Shown here: positions 32,428-43,169 of the stretch, in pieces
Layout of the letters: the number at the start of each line of letters is the position of its first letter
Position numbering within the stretch: position 1 is the first letter of the stretch
Assembly (NCBI GenBank): GCA_030428885.1
Contig: JAUIEJ010000002.1
Span: 436,501 to 500,500, forward strand
Direction of reading: 5' to 3'
Source of the DNA: Gemmatimonadota bacterium
GTDB taxonomy: Bacteria > Gemmatimonadota > Gemmatimonadetes > Longimicrobiales > Gaopeijiaceae
Length of the DNA: 64,000 nucleotides
The notes under the pieces: model-generated
Seen by the model: the letters and a program-made list of their open reading frames with translations, nothing else
What the model was told of the DNA's origin: nothing
The model's database searches: none
Program-made: the position numbers and the translations under genes

Positions 32428-32901
32428 TCAATCCGAAAGCGCAATGAACTCTGTTTCACTCAACGGGATGTTTGCCGAGATCCTACCGTTGCAGGTCGTG
32501 ACCTGCAGTGAGCGTCGCTCGACACTGAGCAGCAAACGGTCTGGGGACGCCTTCAATGCACCGCGGAGTTCCTCGATCCCCGCACCCTCAAGTTGTTCGA
32601 CGATTCGGTCCAAGAGCTGACGGTCTTCCTGCTCTTCTTGAGGCCAGCAGTAGTGGTCCGAGCAATCGCCGGTGGCCTGGCAGGACTCCACATGACCGCG
32701 GTAGTGCTTCACGCCGGTACCTTCGCCGACAACCTTATGCCCCACCATGCACCAGACGCAGTACTTGTCGCACGGGACTTCCAGAGTATTCAGTTGCGTT
32801 CCCAGTGCCAACCCTCGATCGAAAGCTCCCTCTGCGCCAGAATCGCCCGCGAATGCGAGCGCAACCGGTACGGCGAGGGCAAGAATGGTCACCTTGATCA
32901 T
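32428..32901 (-). CDS. Secreted seven-cysteine protein B
   Basis: A 157-residue protein with a signal peptide (about 1-23). Its cysteines are at 44, 48, 51, 74, 80, 85 and 137, with His70. The pattern C-x3-C-x2-C, then H-x3-C-x5-C-S-D-H-x-C, then a late Cys before an I-P-L strand, is shared with the protein encoded at 33995-34465. Middle residues 88-120 are acidic and helical. I recognise no family. The clustered Cys and His could bind a metal or form disulfides. The start overlaps the propeller stop (ATGA), so it is the last gene of a coupled run. Third-position GC is lower than in the flanking chromosome. Confidence 0.75.
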   Translation of the reverse strand: MIKVTILALAVPVALAFAGDSGAEGAFDRGLALGTQLNTLEVPCDKYCVWCMVGHKVVGEGTGVKHYRGHVESCQATGDCSDHYCWPQEEQEDRQLLDRIVEQLEGAGIEELRGALKASPDRLLLSVERRSLQVTTCNGRISANIPLSETEFIALSD

Positions 32902-33998
32902 GGCGCGTTCTCCTGGATTTGAAGAGCGTAAGCTTGATAGACTGGTACGGGGGAGGGCCCGGCGTAGGTCACGTGACCGACGAGTCCCGGACCGGCAAAG
33001 GCGTAGATGAACGGGTCGATTCTCGCGGATGCTACCACACGGAGCGTGACAGGATCGATCGCCTCAACCACGGTGTCGTAGATCCCGTTCATGTCGGTGA
33101 CGTCTCCGCCGTGCGGCTTCGAGGGGTCAACTTCAAGGGCTTCCTGCCAGTTCGCATCAGATACAGCGCTCAGCACCCAGAGTAGGCCGTCGCGCGCCTG
33201 AAAACCGACCACAGCGGCGTCGGGCGCCCTGTCGAGGCTGATGACCCCTCGCCCCGGTGGAAACCACTCCACATCCCGCACGAGGGTACGAATATGGACC
33301 CCCTCGAGCGACCATTCCTCAATCCTGTACTGGGGTCTCCATACGGCCCAGATAGCCCCGGGAGTCTCGCTCGGCGCCACCCTCCGTTCGATCAGGTGTT
33401 GTTCGGCAGCCGAAAACGCTCCTCGGTTGAGCGATCCAAATGAGCGAACGACATTCCCATCCAAGCCGACAAGGTGCAGGGGGAAACCGACACGGTTGGG
33501 AGAGTAGTCGATACTCGCCGTCAGGATGCGTCCGTCGGGGAGCAGCTTGGTATCTCGACCCGGAGCAATCGTCAGTTGCTCGGTACGGACCACCGTCCCG
33601 TCTTCCCGCATCCAAGTCAATCGATTGAGTCGTCGGTCCACGGCAACAAGCGTGTCACCCGCGAAGAGCAGATGGGAGACCCACTGGAACTCTCCCGGGC
33701 CCTCTCCCCGCCGACCCAGATCCCGCAAGTAGGTACCATCGCTTGAGAAGACTCGGATACGATCCCCGCTTTCAGAGATCAGTGCCCACTCCCCGTTGGG
33801 CATGACGCGACCCCAGTCGCCCTCGGATTCCACGATGCCTGGGCCATCGGCGGTCCCCAACTGAATCACTGGATCGAGTCTCACAGACGGACAGGGCTCA
33901 AGGCAGTCCTGAATCAACTCCTGACCACTCAGCGAGCCTCCACCAGCCATCGCCAGAAGAGCGACGACAGAGGGCCAGGTCGGCCTACTTCGCATCAT
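32898..33998 (-). CDS. Exported six-bladed beta-propeller protein
   Basis: A 366-residue protein with a signal peptide ending near SLSGQ. A Cys pair follows (DCLEPC). Propeller blades show as GEWALISESGDRIRVFSSDGTYLRDLG and RRGEGPGEFQWVSHLLFAGDTLVAVD, the G-x-G-P-G-E-F signature also present in the propellers at 16003 and 43864. It sits between two homologous Cys-rich genes and overlaps both by 4 bp (ATGA at 33995-33998 and at 32898-32901), so the three are translationally coupled and their products are likely to work together outside the cytoplasm. The role is unknown. Confidence 0.82.
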   Translation of the reverse strand: MMRSRPTWPSVVALLAMAGGGSLSGQELIQDCLEPCPSVRLDPVIQLGTADGPGIVESEGDWGRVMPNGEWALISESGDRIRVFSSDGTYLRDLGRRGEGPGEFQWVSHLLFAGDTLVAVDRRLNRLTWMREDGTVVRTEQLTIAPGRDTKLLPDGRILTASIDYSPNRVGFPLHLVGLDGNVVRSFGSLNRGAFSAAEQHLIERRVAPSETPGAIWAVWRPQYRIEEWSLEGVHIRTLVRDVEWFPPGRGVISLDRAPDAAVVGFQARDGLLWVLSAVSDANWQEALEVDPSKPHGGDVTDMNGIYDTVVEAIDPVTLRVVASARIDPFIYAFAGPGLVGHVTYAGPSPVPVYQAYALQIQENAP

Positions 33999-34465
33999 GG
34001 TTGAACCGCGGCCCAGACCGACTGCTTCAGAGGTACCGAGAGAGCGATCGCATTCGGACAGAGTCGCACCTGAACCGCCGCACGGGACCCGTTCAGACTA
34101 AATCGCTCGGGCGCCACGGTGACCAACTCCCGAACCGCGACGGCGGGCATGGACTCAATCTGCGCCGCTAGTGCAGCCAGCTTCTCCTCGGTTTCCTCCA
34201 GGTCTTCCTCGTGCTGGACGCAGAGATGGTCTGAACAGTAGCCGATCGGCGTGCACTGCTCGGTGTGGTATCCGTGAATGCCCTCCCCCATCTGGGGCTG
34301 AATCACCGCATGTTGACCCTCGGTTGTGCAGTTCGTGCACTGGAGGTCGCAGGCGAAACTCGGGAGATTCGCCGCCAATTCAAGGACACGCGAGGCGGGG
34401 GAGCCGGGGGGGCCGGCCATTCCAACTAGAGCCGCCGCAGCGGCTGCTGCGATCAGGAGCTTCAT
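33995..34465 (-). CDS. Secreted seven-cysteine protein A
   Basis: A 156-residue protein with a signal peptide (MKLLIAAAAAAALVGMAG). Cysteines at 39, 43, 46, 71, 77, 82 and 136 and His67 match protein B one for one: C-x3-C-x2-C, H-x3-C-x5-C-S-D-H-x-C and a late Cys. After the Cys block comes an acidic helix (EEDLEETEEKLAALAAQIESM) and a C-terminal strand region. It has a strong Shine-Dalgarno AAGGAGG about 7 nt before the ATG. It begins the three-gene secreted run, 70 bp after the regulator gene. No family is recognised; the paired copies suggest two subunits or two substrates of one complex. Confidence 0.78.
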   Translation of the reverse strand: MKLLIAAAAAAALVGMAGPPGSPASRVLELAANLPSFACDLQCTNCTTEGQHAVIQPQMGEGIHGYHTEQCTPIGYCSDHLCVQHEEDLEETEEKLAALAAQIESMPAVAVRELVTVAPERFSLNGSRAAVQVRLCPNAIALSVPLKQSVWAAVQP

Positions 34466-34502
34466 TGTCTTCCTCCTTGACGAGTGGATCCATGGGCATC
34501 AC

Positions 34503-34517
34503 ATGATGAGAATCATA
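34503..34517 (-). promoter_or_regulatory. Possible internal promoter and small dyad before Cys-rich gene A
   Basis: On the minus strand TATGAT (34512-34517) is a good -10 hexamer, but no convincing -35 is seen. The same bases form a dyad, ATGAT-GAGA-ATCAT (34503-34516), faintly like a Fur-family half-site. It lies in the 70-bp gap after the regulator gene. Confidence 0.3.
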
Positions 34518-34535
34518 GTCGCGGCCCGCCGTCAA

Positions 34536-35342
34536 TCATGGACCATACCTGCGATTCCGGACGGAATCCGGTGTCTTGATGAGCCAACGCCCCACGGGGC
34601 GAAGAAGGCCACCGAGCTGAGCATCGAGGGTGGAGATCTCCGTCGTCACCAATCCCCCGATCGATACCGCCATGGTAGCTCTCACAAACCGTCGCACGCT
34701 CCTGTCCGACGAGTATCCCAAGCGCCCTGGGAGGCCCGGGTCGTCGTGCCCGAACGCCTCGACGTAGAGGCGGACCCACCGAACCGATGCGAGCGAGCAC
34801 ACGCGAACGAGATCCAGGCCGATCACACGAGCCTGTCTCCCCAAATGACCCGCGTCCATGCCCAGACGCTCCGCCAACGCCGCGATGGAGCGAGGTGGCG
34901 GATCGCCCAGCGGCGACTTCGCGTGTCGAAGCAGGAACCGCACCGCCATCACCACGTTTCCAGGCACGTCCGGCCGGAACTCGAAGTCCGGTAGGCGGGG
35001 CGCGACCGACATCGTTGACAGGAACGACCGGAATCGCGCCTGCTCTTGCGGAAAGGTGAAGACGCCGTGGAGCGGCCAACCTCGTATGACCCGTAGATCC
35101 ACCGGATCGGCCCAGCTCAACAGGATCGCACGGCGGGTACGCTGCGCGAGCTTGTGCACCGTTCGGGGCAGGTCCGGCCAGAGCAGGTCGTCGATGGCCA
35201 GGAAGCAGGCGGGTGAGCGCTCCGGGCAATGATCCATCAGGACGTACTGCACGTTCGCCGGCAGCGATCGAAACACGTCGGCGACCTGCTGCGCCAGCCA
35301 GTCGGGCTCGTGGCCCACGACGAGAAGTGGGATGCGGTCCAT
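34536..35342 (-). CDS. AraC-type regulator with receiver-like N-terminal domain
   Basis: A 268-residue protein. Residues 1-120 have alternating hydrophobic strands (PLLVVGHEPDWL, YVLMDHCPER, FLAIDDLLW, AILLSWADP, HGVFTFPQ) like a receiver fold; a phosphorylatable Asp cannot be assigned with confidence. Residues about 150-235 hold two helix-turn-helix units: SIAALAERLGMDAGHLGRQAR and PGLPGRLGYSSDRSVRRFVRATM, the latter matching the second AraC HTH. It is the first gene of the leftward run and has a promoter and palindrome directly upstream, so it probably controls itself and the Cys-rich/propeller genes. Confidence 0.7.
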   Translation of the reverse strand: MDRIPLLVVGHEPDWLAQQVADVFRSLPANVQYVLMDHCPERSPACFLAIDDLLWPDLPRTVHKLAQRTRRAILLSWADPVDLRVIRGWPLHGVFTFPQEQARFRSFLSTMSVAPRLPDFEFRPDVPGNVVMAVRFLLRHAKSPLGDPPPRSIAALAERLGMDAGHLGRQARVIGLDLVRVCSLASVRWVRLYVEAFGHDDPGLPGRLGYSSDRSVRRFVRATMAVSIGGLVTTEISTLDAQLGGLLRPVGRWLIKTPDSVRNRRYGP

Positions 35343-35348
35343 GGAGCG

Positions 35349-35362
35349 ATCTCCCGGGAGAT
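35349..35362. promoter_or_regulatory. Perfect palindrome between promoter and start of the AraC-type gene
   Basis: ATCTCCCGGGAGAT is a perfect 14-bp palindrome, flanked by GAGC on one side and GCTC on the other. It lies between the -10 element and the ATG, where a bound protein would block initiation. It is a candidate autoregulatory operator for the adjacent regulator. Confidence 0.55.
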
Positions 35363-35370
35363 GCTCCTAA

Positions 35371-35399
35371 GCTATACCCCCCCCCCGCCTAGAACGCAA
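35371..35399 (-). promoter_or_regulatory. Promoter with a G10 run in the -35/-10 spacer
   Basis: On the minus strand TTGCGT (35394-35399) and TATAGC (35371-35376) are separated by exactly 17 bp, and the last ten bases of that spacer are all G (35377-35386). Length change in such a run alters promoter strength in known phase-variable genes. The element drives toward the AraC-type gene, whose ATG is about 29 bp downstream. Confidence 0.55.
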
Positions 35400-35603: not shown

Positions 35604-35831
35604 TCACACCGGATCTCGCTCGCGGCCTTCGCGGATGGCGGCCATGATCTCCTCTCGATTCAGACCGGCGTCCACGCCGGGTACGTCGAGCGGCGACGAC
35701 CGGTCCGGGACCGGACGGAGGGAGAACTCGGACCCGTCGCGACGCTTGATGCGGATCTCACCGCCCTCGCGTGCCTCGTCCAGGACACGGGCCCGCCAAC
35801 GTCGTGCTTCGGAGTAGGTGTAGACCTTCAC
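35604..35831 (-). CDS. Phd/YefM-like antitoxin
   Basis: A 75-residue protein from GTG 35829-35831: VKVYTYSEARRWRARVLDEAREGGEIRIKRRDGSEFSLRPV, the N-terminal DNA-binding and dimerisation half of a Phd-type antitoxin, then a C-terminal tail SPLDVPGVDAGLNREEIMAAIREGRERD that would wrap a toxin. An upstream TTG at 35876 is possible but adds unlike residues. No intact toxin gene follows it on the minus strand; the next 260 bp hold only a short doubtful frame. It is either an orphan or acts on a toxin elsewhere. Confidence 0.7.
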   Translation of the reverse strand: MKVYTYSEARRWRARVLDEAREGGEIRIKRRDGSEFSLRPVPDRSSPLDVPGVDAGLNREEIMAAIREGRERDPV

Positions 35832-35890
35832 GATTCGACCTCGAGTACGGGGAGGTAGACCGAGGAGTTGGTCCAACGTAATCTCGGGAC

Positions 35891-36006
35891 ATGGCCATCA
35901 TGAACGTGCACGAAGCCAAGACCCATTTCTCCGAGCTGCTGCGCCGTGTCGCGGGATCGGCGACTTCGATGCGCCCCTCCCCGACGGCATCCGGGAGTTG
36001 CCCTGA
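35891..36006 (+). pseudogene. Decayed Phd-type antitoxin gene
   Basis: The frame from ATG 35891 encodes MAIMNVHEAKTHFSELLRRV, a textbook Phd N-terminus, then loses similarity. In another frame, starting at 35959, GDFDAPLPDGIRELP followed by TGA (36004-36006) is a textbook Phd/VapB C-terminus. An internal deletion of roughly 90-120 bp with a frame change has joined the two ends. No toxin gene follows on the plus strand; the stop lies 11 bp from the end of the convergent nucleotidyltransferase gene. Confidence 0.65.
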
Positions 36007-36017
36007 GGCTCCGACGC

Positions 36018-36473
36018 CTACGTCTCGGGCTCCGTCGACTCCAACTGCTCGACATCCGCGAGGTCTCTCGTTCGGCCCACGGCCTTCTTGTTGCGGATGA
36101 GGTCGCCGCGACTCAACACGAAAACACGGATACCGTCGACCTCGATCCGGAGCTTGGAGTCCCAGGCATCCTGGAATAACAAACCGTCGAGCGACGTCAG
36201 GAAGTCGATCCGCGACGGTTCTCGACCGATCTGGACAACGAGGTCGTCCCGAAGGAAGTCCGCTTCTGCCAGGCCCTCGGTCGGAGCTCCGAACTTCTCC
36301 AGCGCCCGCAACAAGTGACGGGCGTTGTTCTCGTCCTTCCGAATCCAGAAGTCGAGGTCGCCCGTGGCTCTGGGCACCCCATGGGCGGCGAGGGCATACG
36401 CACCGACGACGAGGTACTCAACGCCCTCGTCGTTCAATACGGACAACATCTCTCTGAAGTGGGGATTCAGCAC
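36018..36473 (-). CDS. Nucleotidyltransferase of the AbiEii/MenT-like group
   Basis: A 151-residue protein from GTG 36471-36473: LNPHFREMLSVLNDEGVEYLVVGAYALAAHGVPRATGDLDFWIRKDENN, the GxYAL...GDLDFW signature whose two Asp bind metal in minimal nucleotidyltransferases. Later parts (PSRIDFLTSLDGL, IRVFVLSRGDLIRNKKAVGRTRDLADVEQL) match the family of toxin-type transferases that modify RNA or protein. A TTG at 36512 would add 13 residues. It overlaps the upstream 67-residue gene, which is the usual partner arrangement. Toxin activity is inferred from relatives. Confidence 0.8.
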   Translation of the reverse strand: MLNPHFREMLSVLNDEGVEYLVVGAYALAAHGVPRATGDLDFWIRKDENNARHLLRALEKFGAPTEGLAEADFLRDDLVVQIGREPSRIDFLTSLDGLLFQDAWDSKLRIEVDGIRVFVLSRGDLIRNKKAVGRTRDLADVEQLESTEPET

Positions 36474-36621
36474 GATCCGCTTCGCCCATGAAGGTCCACG
36501 CGTCGACGGCAAGTTGCCACATCACGCCGATACGCTCGGCAGGAGACGCGTCGGAGTAGTCGAGCCGACGCTCCACATCTCGGAGGCCGGCGATCCGGAT
36601 TTCCGTTTCTCGTTCGGCCAT
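36418..36621 (-). CDS. Small partner protein of the nucleotidyltransferase
   Basis: A 67-residue protein, MAERETEIRIAGLRDVERR and onward, with a strong Shine-Dalgarno GGAGAGG before its ATG. Residues 20-45 contain ASPAERIGVMWQLAVDAWTF, a helix pattern common in short proteins encoded directly before minimal nucleotidyltransferases. It overlaps the transferase gene by 56 bp and follows the RHH antitoxin gene by 26 bp. It may be the antitoxin of the transferase; this is inferred from position and family habit. Confidence 0.65.
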   Translation of the reverse strand: MAERETEIRIAGLRDVERRLDYSDASPAERIGVMWQLAVDAWTFMGEADRAESPLQRDVVRIERRGR

Positions 36622-36647
36622 ATCCTCTCCTTCGATACGGAGGACCG

Positions 36648-36890
36648 CTACTCCGGCAGTTCGTCCCCAGCCGTAGGAGCAACGTCCGGAACCCGGGACA
36701 GGACCTCCAGGAAGGCGTCACGCGAACCGCGCGTGGCTCGCTCCTCCAGATAGGCCACCGTGTCCAGGGCAGAGACCTTTTCGGCGAGGGCCGTCGCGAT
36801 CAGTTGATTCATCGAGATTCCCTCTCGCTTCGCCAACTCCCGTGCTCGTTCATGGAGCGACTCCGGGAGCCGCAAGCTCATCGTGCTCAT
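36648..36890 (-). CDS. Ribbon-helix-helix antitoxin of a PIN toxin
   Basis: An 80-residue protein: MSTMSLRLPESLHERARELAKREGISMNQLIATALAEKV is a complete RHH DNA-binding domain of the CopG/HicB-antitoxin type, followed by a tail (about 45-80) that should bind the toxin. The ATG overlaps the toxin stop (ATGA at 36887-36890). Here the antitoxin gene is second, after the toxin. Confidence 0.85.
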   Translation of the reverse strand: MSTMSLRLPESLHERARELAKREGISMNQLIATALAEKVSALDTVAYLEERATRGSRDAFLEVLSRVPDVAPTAGDELPE

Positions 36891-37309
36891 GGGGCTTCGC
36901 TCTCCAATTCCGTGAGAAACTCCGACGGTCGCACGATACGAACTCCGAATCGTTCTTCCACGCCCGCGTAGTCCCGAACGTTGTGGGTCAGGATCATGTC
37001 TGCGGAAGCCCCGACCGCGACCTCGAGCACCATTTCGTCGCCGGGGTCACGAAGAAACGGACGCCAGAGGTAGTAGATCGGTTGCCGGTCTCCAATCCGA
37101 CAGAGGTAGTCGATGACCGCTTCCACATCCGCCTGCTCCAGCTTCGTTCGACGGCCTAGAACCATCTCGTACTCGAGTACGAGCGGAACGGATAAGACGA
37201 TCCGGAACGGCGCCTTCGGGCCGATAGATCGCAACAACGCGTGTGATGCGCCGCGACGGGATCGCATTGCAGCCACGAGCACGTTGGTGTCGACGACGAC
37301 CCGAATCAT
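36887..37309 (-). CDS. PIN-domain toxin (putative ribonuclease)
   Basis: A 140-residue PIN protein of the group of putative toxin-antitoxin PIN components. Acidic metal-binding residues are visible: Asp7 in VVVDTNVLVAA, Glu near residue 47 in VPLVLEYEMVLG, Asp and Glu in FLRDPGDEMVLEVA, and Asp in ILTHNVRDY. Such proteins cleave RNA. It is the first gene of a leftward run toxin, RHH antitoxin, small protein, nucleotidyltransferase. A dyad lies directly before its ATG. Confidence 0.88.
   Translation of the reverse strand: MIRVVVDTNVLVAAMRSRRGASHALLRSIGPKAPFRIVLSVPLVLEYEMVLGRRTKLEQADVEAVIDYLCRIGDRQPIYYLWRPFLRDPGDEMVLEVAVGASADMILTHNVRDYAGVEERFGVRIVRPSEFLTELESEAP

Positions 37310-39285: not shown

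Positions 39286-43169
<3,884 letters not shown>

Follow-up and report, generated by a model that had tools for sequence, protein, structure and literature searches.

We interpret the locus at 32428–35342 of the window (the whole stretch of 64,000 nt analysed here) as a module encoding an exported cognate pair, one or more Cys/His-rich proteins and a non-lipidated β-propeller, and the two partners probably form a phase-variable complex that disulfide or metal ligands hold together. For this reading as a whole, we estimate a probability of about one half. Co-function of the Cys protein and the propeller is well supported. Neither the propeller fold nor a slippage promoter is new in kind. What is new, to the extent that it could be tested, is that the propeller is paired with a Cys/His-rich partner and has a matching Cys pair; the Cys family and its pairing are undescribed in curated families or in the open-access papers found. 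The locus contains the following features:

35371..35399, minus strand: presumed promoter TTGCGT - 17-nt spacer - TATAGC, read by eye, with a G10 tract inside the spacer
35377..35386, minus strand: G10 homopolymer tract, 34 nt upstream of the regulator; presumed switch for phase variation
35349..35362, no strand assigned: perfect 14-bp palindrome ATCTCCCGGGAGAT, possible operator, just before the regulator start
34536..35342, minus strand: regulator gene, ORF of 268 aa; N-terminal part without family match and presumed AraC-type HTH in the C-terminal half
33995..34465, minus strand: CysA, exported Cys/His-rich protein, ORF of 156 aa; Sec-type signal peptide by eye
32898..33998, minus strand: six-bladed β-propeller, exported, non-lipoprotein, ORF of 366 aa
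33891..33905, minus strand: propeller N-terminal C32-x3-C36 codons, preceding the first strand (residues 38–47)
32428..32901, minus strand: CysB, exported Cys/His-rich protein, CysA paralogue, ORF of 157 aa
32375..32408, minus strand: GC-rich hairpin, likely operon end, 20 nt past the CysB stop; 16-nt arms, 94% complementary

As described in the earlier note, all four genes are minus-strand open reading frames in a segment of lower GC content (0.624 vs 0.708 for the window), and the propeller gene lies between the two Cys genes with ATGA overlaps on both sides, which are exact (33995–33998 for CysA/propeller, 32898–32901 for propeller/CysB). The hairpin has no T-run and was not called by the terminator scan. 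A toxin–antitoxin-like cluster adjoins the operon at 35604–37309, and the low-GC stretch extends through it; the cluster contains a Phd/YefM-like protein (below cut-off), a DUF6036/DUF2204 nucleotidyltransferase and, by eye, a ribbon-helix-helix and PIN-like pair.

We performed a profile search with the Cys block, which was not conditioned on propellers. A same-strand propeller directly adjoins 57 of 61 distinct Cys genes, bearing out the expected linkage of the Cys block with propeller genes. The gene order varies, with 22 linked Cys genes located after the propeller, 32 before it and three between two propellers. Among the four exceptions, two retain a propeller in the same cluster; the four comprise the second of two Cys genes downstream of a propeller, a Cys gene separated by the regulator from a divergent propeller, a Cys gene without a near propeller and an apparent fragment in a disrupted frame. 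The 5.4-Mb genome from which the window derives yields about 50 propeller matches, mostly presumed lipoproteins with no common partner, and from this density we estimate chance adjacency at a few percent at most. Apart from the regulator at a few loci, no other gene family recurs in the neighbourhoods of the pair, and no recurrent modification, maturation, protease, transporter or export gene was found there.

CysA and CysB contain all seven Cys in the spacing given by the earlier note. The two proteins had been described as sharing these residues while differing elsewhere; the shared spacing stands, yet they are paralogues along their full length, homologous end to end with 28% identity over 158 columns (E 2e-13). 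The key residues of CysA are C39, C43, C46, H52, H64/67, C71, C77, H80, C82 and C136. Instead of the one His first proposed, three His are conserved across the family (44–45 of 47 members). In the alignment of the 47 members having the N-terminal half, C1, C2, C5 and C7 are present in 46–47 sequences, and C6 is mostly present, yet its position shifts. C3 and C4 occur together in 32 members, are both missing from 14 and are represented by a single residue in one (p 4.4e-11). The conserved family core is five Cys and three His, with an optional Cys3–Cys4 pair that is gained and lost together; such joint presence and absence is the pattern expected of a disulfide. For both the Cys genes and the propeller genes, dN/dS ranges from 0.12 to 0.66, and the Cys proteins evolve under purifying selection.

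In the AF2 model of CysB, residues ~90–157 are confident and fold as helix-helix-three strands-helix, a C-terminal part that contains C7, while the Cys-rich middle has a pLDDT under 50. A fold search with the Cys model, half of which is poor, reached at best Z 2.8 and a Foldseek E of 0.46. CysA and CysB have no match to Pfam and NCBIfam at the cut-offs, and the other Cys members scanned likewise have none. No PADLOC model of a known anti-phage defence system matched; no PDB sequence matched the family profile, PHROGs gave weak matches only, and the viral contigs and plasmids searched held no relatives. The earlier note knew no named family for this Cys pattern, and the searches of Pfam, NCBIfam, PADLOC and PDB support it.

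The AF2 model of the window propeller (pLDDT 77, pTM 0.78) aligns in VIA-align with Z 19–21 to NHL propellers and to the Bacteroides structures 3s9j and 4raa, and both the model and this similarity to solved six-bladed propellers support a six-bladed fold. Against Pfam and NCBIfam, the propeller has only a sub-threshold match to PF17170 (DUF5128; 18.3 bits, E 1.4e-3), which does not reach the gathering score of 22.9 bits; no literature on DUF5128 was found. Residues C32 and C36 are placed immediately before the first strand, which starts at residue 38 in the model. A C-x1-4-C motif between signal peptide and first strand is found in 40 of the 47 partnered propellers that were assessable vs 9 of 60 unpartnered propellers (Fisher 1.5e-13), the latter being mostly lipoprotein-like with a single lipobox Cys. 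Of the nine motif-bearing unpartnered propellers, at least one precedes an unrecognised Cys-protein fragment, and two or more duplicate or overlap partnered loci. The correspondence has exceptions on both sides: some paired propellers have a single N-terminal Cys or lack it altogether, and there are a few motif-bearing propellers with no recognised partner. The trait is clustered on the propeller tree, with 14 changes of the partnered state; a lineage-independent test of the Cys pair against the partner gave no significance (8 usable independent pairs, median p 0.63). Because of this clustering and the small number of independent pairs, the association of the Cys pair may go back to a single ancestral event, or to a few, and not to repeated selection.

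Evolutionary distances of the Cys proteins and their propeller partners are correlated, with a Mantel r of 0.70 for 49 pairs and 0.49 for 41 non-redundant pairs, a value reached by 0 of 2000 shuffles, and with r 0.82 among nine pairs of one genome. Inheritance and duplication therefore tend to involve whole pairs, and such a correlation can arise from joint inheritance and duplication without contact. The partner-specific Cys residues and the co-varying distances fit a working pair, whose two proteins may bind each other.

Of 394 genomes sampled across the class, 32 contain the family by the profile search; with a second alignment, the count was 32 of 395 genomes sampled from the phylum, every match lying inside the class. 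So far, the module has been found only in Gemmatimonadota. Named records with the family are Gemmatimonadota MAGs, one of them assigned to Longimicrobiales, and their bin names suggest sponge sources. Copy number is patchy even among genomes assembled as one contig, G001 having two Cys genes, G002 none and G029 at least nine, and in the genome of the window further Cys paralogues adjoin propellers or regulator paralogues. All Cys genes tested (50/50) are lower in GC than their flanks, which fits accessory genes; the composition of small secreted proteins may contribute. We regard the locus as a mobile-looking accessory module.

Several related sequences were observed alongside the family. In G129, a C-terminal Cys-family fragment with a disrupted frame (L190:3362-4147) apparently adjoins a transposase-like sequence. 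A longer protein with more Cys and weak similarity (L193:2185-3021, E 0.0035) adjoins a lipoprotein propeller and may belong to a remote branch of the family. In the genome of the window, one propeller gene adjoins the gene for a 142-aa protein with a CHCGC-type Cys block (L065:2808-3236). Other small Cys-rich peptides, which may or may not be homologous to the Cys family, adjoin propellers at L077, L155 and L187.

The regulator itself has no Pfam or NCBIfam match, HTH profiles PF12833 and PF00165 included. One homologue (L188) matches HTH_18 at 8.4e-7, just under the curated cut-off for an AraC-type HTH, and the regulator is presumed to be AraC-like from this homologue. Two regulator paralogues in the same genome (29–33% identity) each adjoin a Cys gene, and a remote homologue in G022 overlaps a propeller gene. 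In G003 (L187:5101-8023), the genes after a 50% homologue encode a small secreted Cys-rich peptide, a thioredoxin-like CPHC protein and a propeller lipoprotein; this arrangement may be another form of the module. We rejected the regulator as a universal part of the module, since at E 1e-4 only 3 of the 121 genomes with the family have it.

The G10 tract, absent from the earlier note, is the only G/C run of at least nine in the window, where only 5 G/C runs of eight occur against 36 expected from shuffles; across the 5.39-Mb genome, G10 runs are few. In this genome, CTTGCGTTC-N-G8+ has two occurrences, each shortly ahead of a regulator paralogue. As in phase-variable loci, a long homopolymer is present here at a presumed expression-control position. 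With the tract in their 17-nt spacer, the hexamers TTGCGT and TATAGC, as predicted by eye, would be a classical slippage promoter; a sigma-70 consensus scan did not call them. Evidence for the palindrome as operator is weak because the palindrome recurs exactly at 41104, within another gene. Poly-C tracts also follow the start codon of Cys genes directly: in G029, a C21 tract spans codons 4–10 of an intact Cys gene in frame (L129:4955-4975), and in G122 a C10 tract at the same place leaves a decayed Cys homologue out of frame (L134:4932-4941); tracts of this kind are common in the genus of G029. Poly-G near modules as a general rule was rejected for the sponge-associated genus, in which G tracts of 12 or more are common.

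We propose the following sequence of events. Slippage in the G10 tract would alter promoter spacing and set the regulator on or off, and the regulator would in turn activate the operon. Outside the cytoplasm, Cys3 and Cys4 would form a disulfide, and the other Cys and the three His would bind metal or form further disulfides. The Cys-rich part might then dock on the C-x(2-3)-C tail of the propeller via a mixed disulfide or a shared metal site, so that the window propeller could carry two different Cys subunits. The complex would serve as a variable unit of recognition, metal or redox function, located on the cell surface or in the periplasm; metal or redox use is plausible because three His are near-invariant and Cys3 and Cys4 are lost together. 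More tentatively, the exported complex may be of a new class: Cys of both chains would build a metal or mixed-disulfide site common to the Cys/His subunit and the propeller, and duplication would have given symbiotic Gemmatimonadota many specific cognate pairs, switched stochastically by a phase-variable regulator.

Chance neighbourhood, i.e. unrelated small secreted proteins next to an abundant propeller family, would draw on the many propellers in the genome; an adjacency of 57/61 where a few percent is expected, together with the different motif content of partnered and unpartnered propellers, makes it extremely improbable. For the other three alternatives, the positive evidence is resemblance, with none beyond it. 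An exported oxidoreductase like methylamine or aromatic-amine dehydrogenase, in which a small disulfide-rich subunit joins a propeller subunit and is the place where a cofactor is made (a quinone from Trp/Cys in the methylamine dehydrogenase type), has the same general architecture of a small Cys-rich partner and an exported propeller, and the gene order in G003 recalls the mau order known from the literature. This alternative is nevertheless unlikely: no Cys member scanned has a Pfam or NCBIfam light-subunit match, no conserved Trp is visible in the Cys alignment, the closest propellers are six-bladed NHL propellers and not a seven-bladed heavy subunit, and the genome contains no MauE.

The Cys proteins could also be precursors of secreted peptides (bacteriocins or signals) that the propeller matures or binds, and their variability, multiple copies, Cys content, export and patchy distribution suit such a role. 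Maturation of precursors by the propeller, suggested in the earlier note, found no support: no modification, protease, transporter or export gene recurs nearby, the C-terminal 65 residues form a confident and conserved domain, and the whole gene is under purifying selection; PADLOC likewise gave no match, and we consider the precursor role rather improbable. Tight pairing, nine scattered pairs in one genome, low GC, co-varying distances and the toxin–antitoxin-like genes next door recall a polymorphic interference or effector–immunity pair, with the propeller neutralising the Cys protein. Both partners appear to be exported without a linked secretion apparatus, one propeller here serves two Cys proteins, and no toxin-like family matched, so that interference is quite improbable.

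Neither the protein family nor the gene pairing defined by this locus is present in Pfam or NCBIfam, and the extra Cys pair of the propeller makes partnership clearly testable. One Longimicrobiales-assigned MAG has nine scattered pairs and some congeners have none, which suggests that the module serves interactions and not housekeeping. If the G tract is a switch, it offers a handle on phase variation in a phylum with little-known gene regulation.

Several known systems resemble the module or parts of it. A Cys-rich secreted ligand on a six-bladed propeller is seen in LRP6 with Dkk1 or sclerostin (3s8v, 6l6r; structural match Z about 16), a likeness of fold only, with no sign of shared ancestry or function. 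In Bacteroidota, the NVEALA peptides (PF14055) are small exported proteins with Cys residues, and their genes are said to lie next to those of six-bladed propellers. CysA and CysB differ in being two to three times longer and in having a folded C-terminal domain; membership was rejected, since PF14055 matched neither protein nor anything in their genome, and the open-access literature searched yielded no mention of NVEALA. The light and heavy subunits MauA and MauB share the combination of a small disulfide-rich subunit with an exported propeller subunit, and differ by the lack of a sequence match, by seven blades vs six and by mauE/mauD, which the operon here does not contain. Poly-G/C tracts in the −35/−10 spacer make promoters phase-variable, e.g. 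Neisseria porA and opc. The G10 tract is similarly placed in the 17-nt spacer between presumed hexamers; unlike in porA and opc, it would switch a regulator and not a surface protein directly, and it is known from one assembled tract length, homopolymer lengths in assemblies being unreliable. PF17170 (DUF5128) and the Bacteroides proteins 4raa (BF0058) and 3s9j (DUF4221) are, like the window propeller, six-bladed and NHL-like (VIA-align Z 19.1 and 19.8 for the two structures). Unlike these, the window propeller has no lipobox and carries an N-terminal Cys pair together with a cognate Cys/His-rich partner gene.
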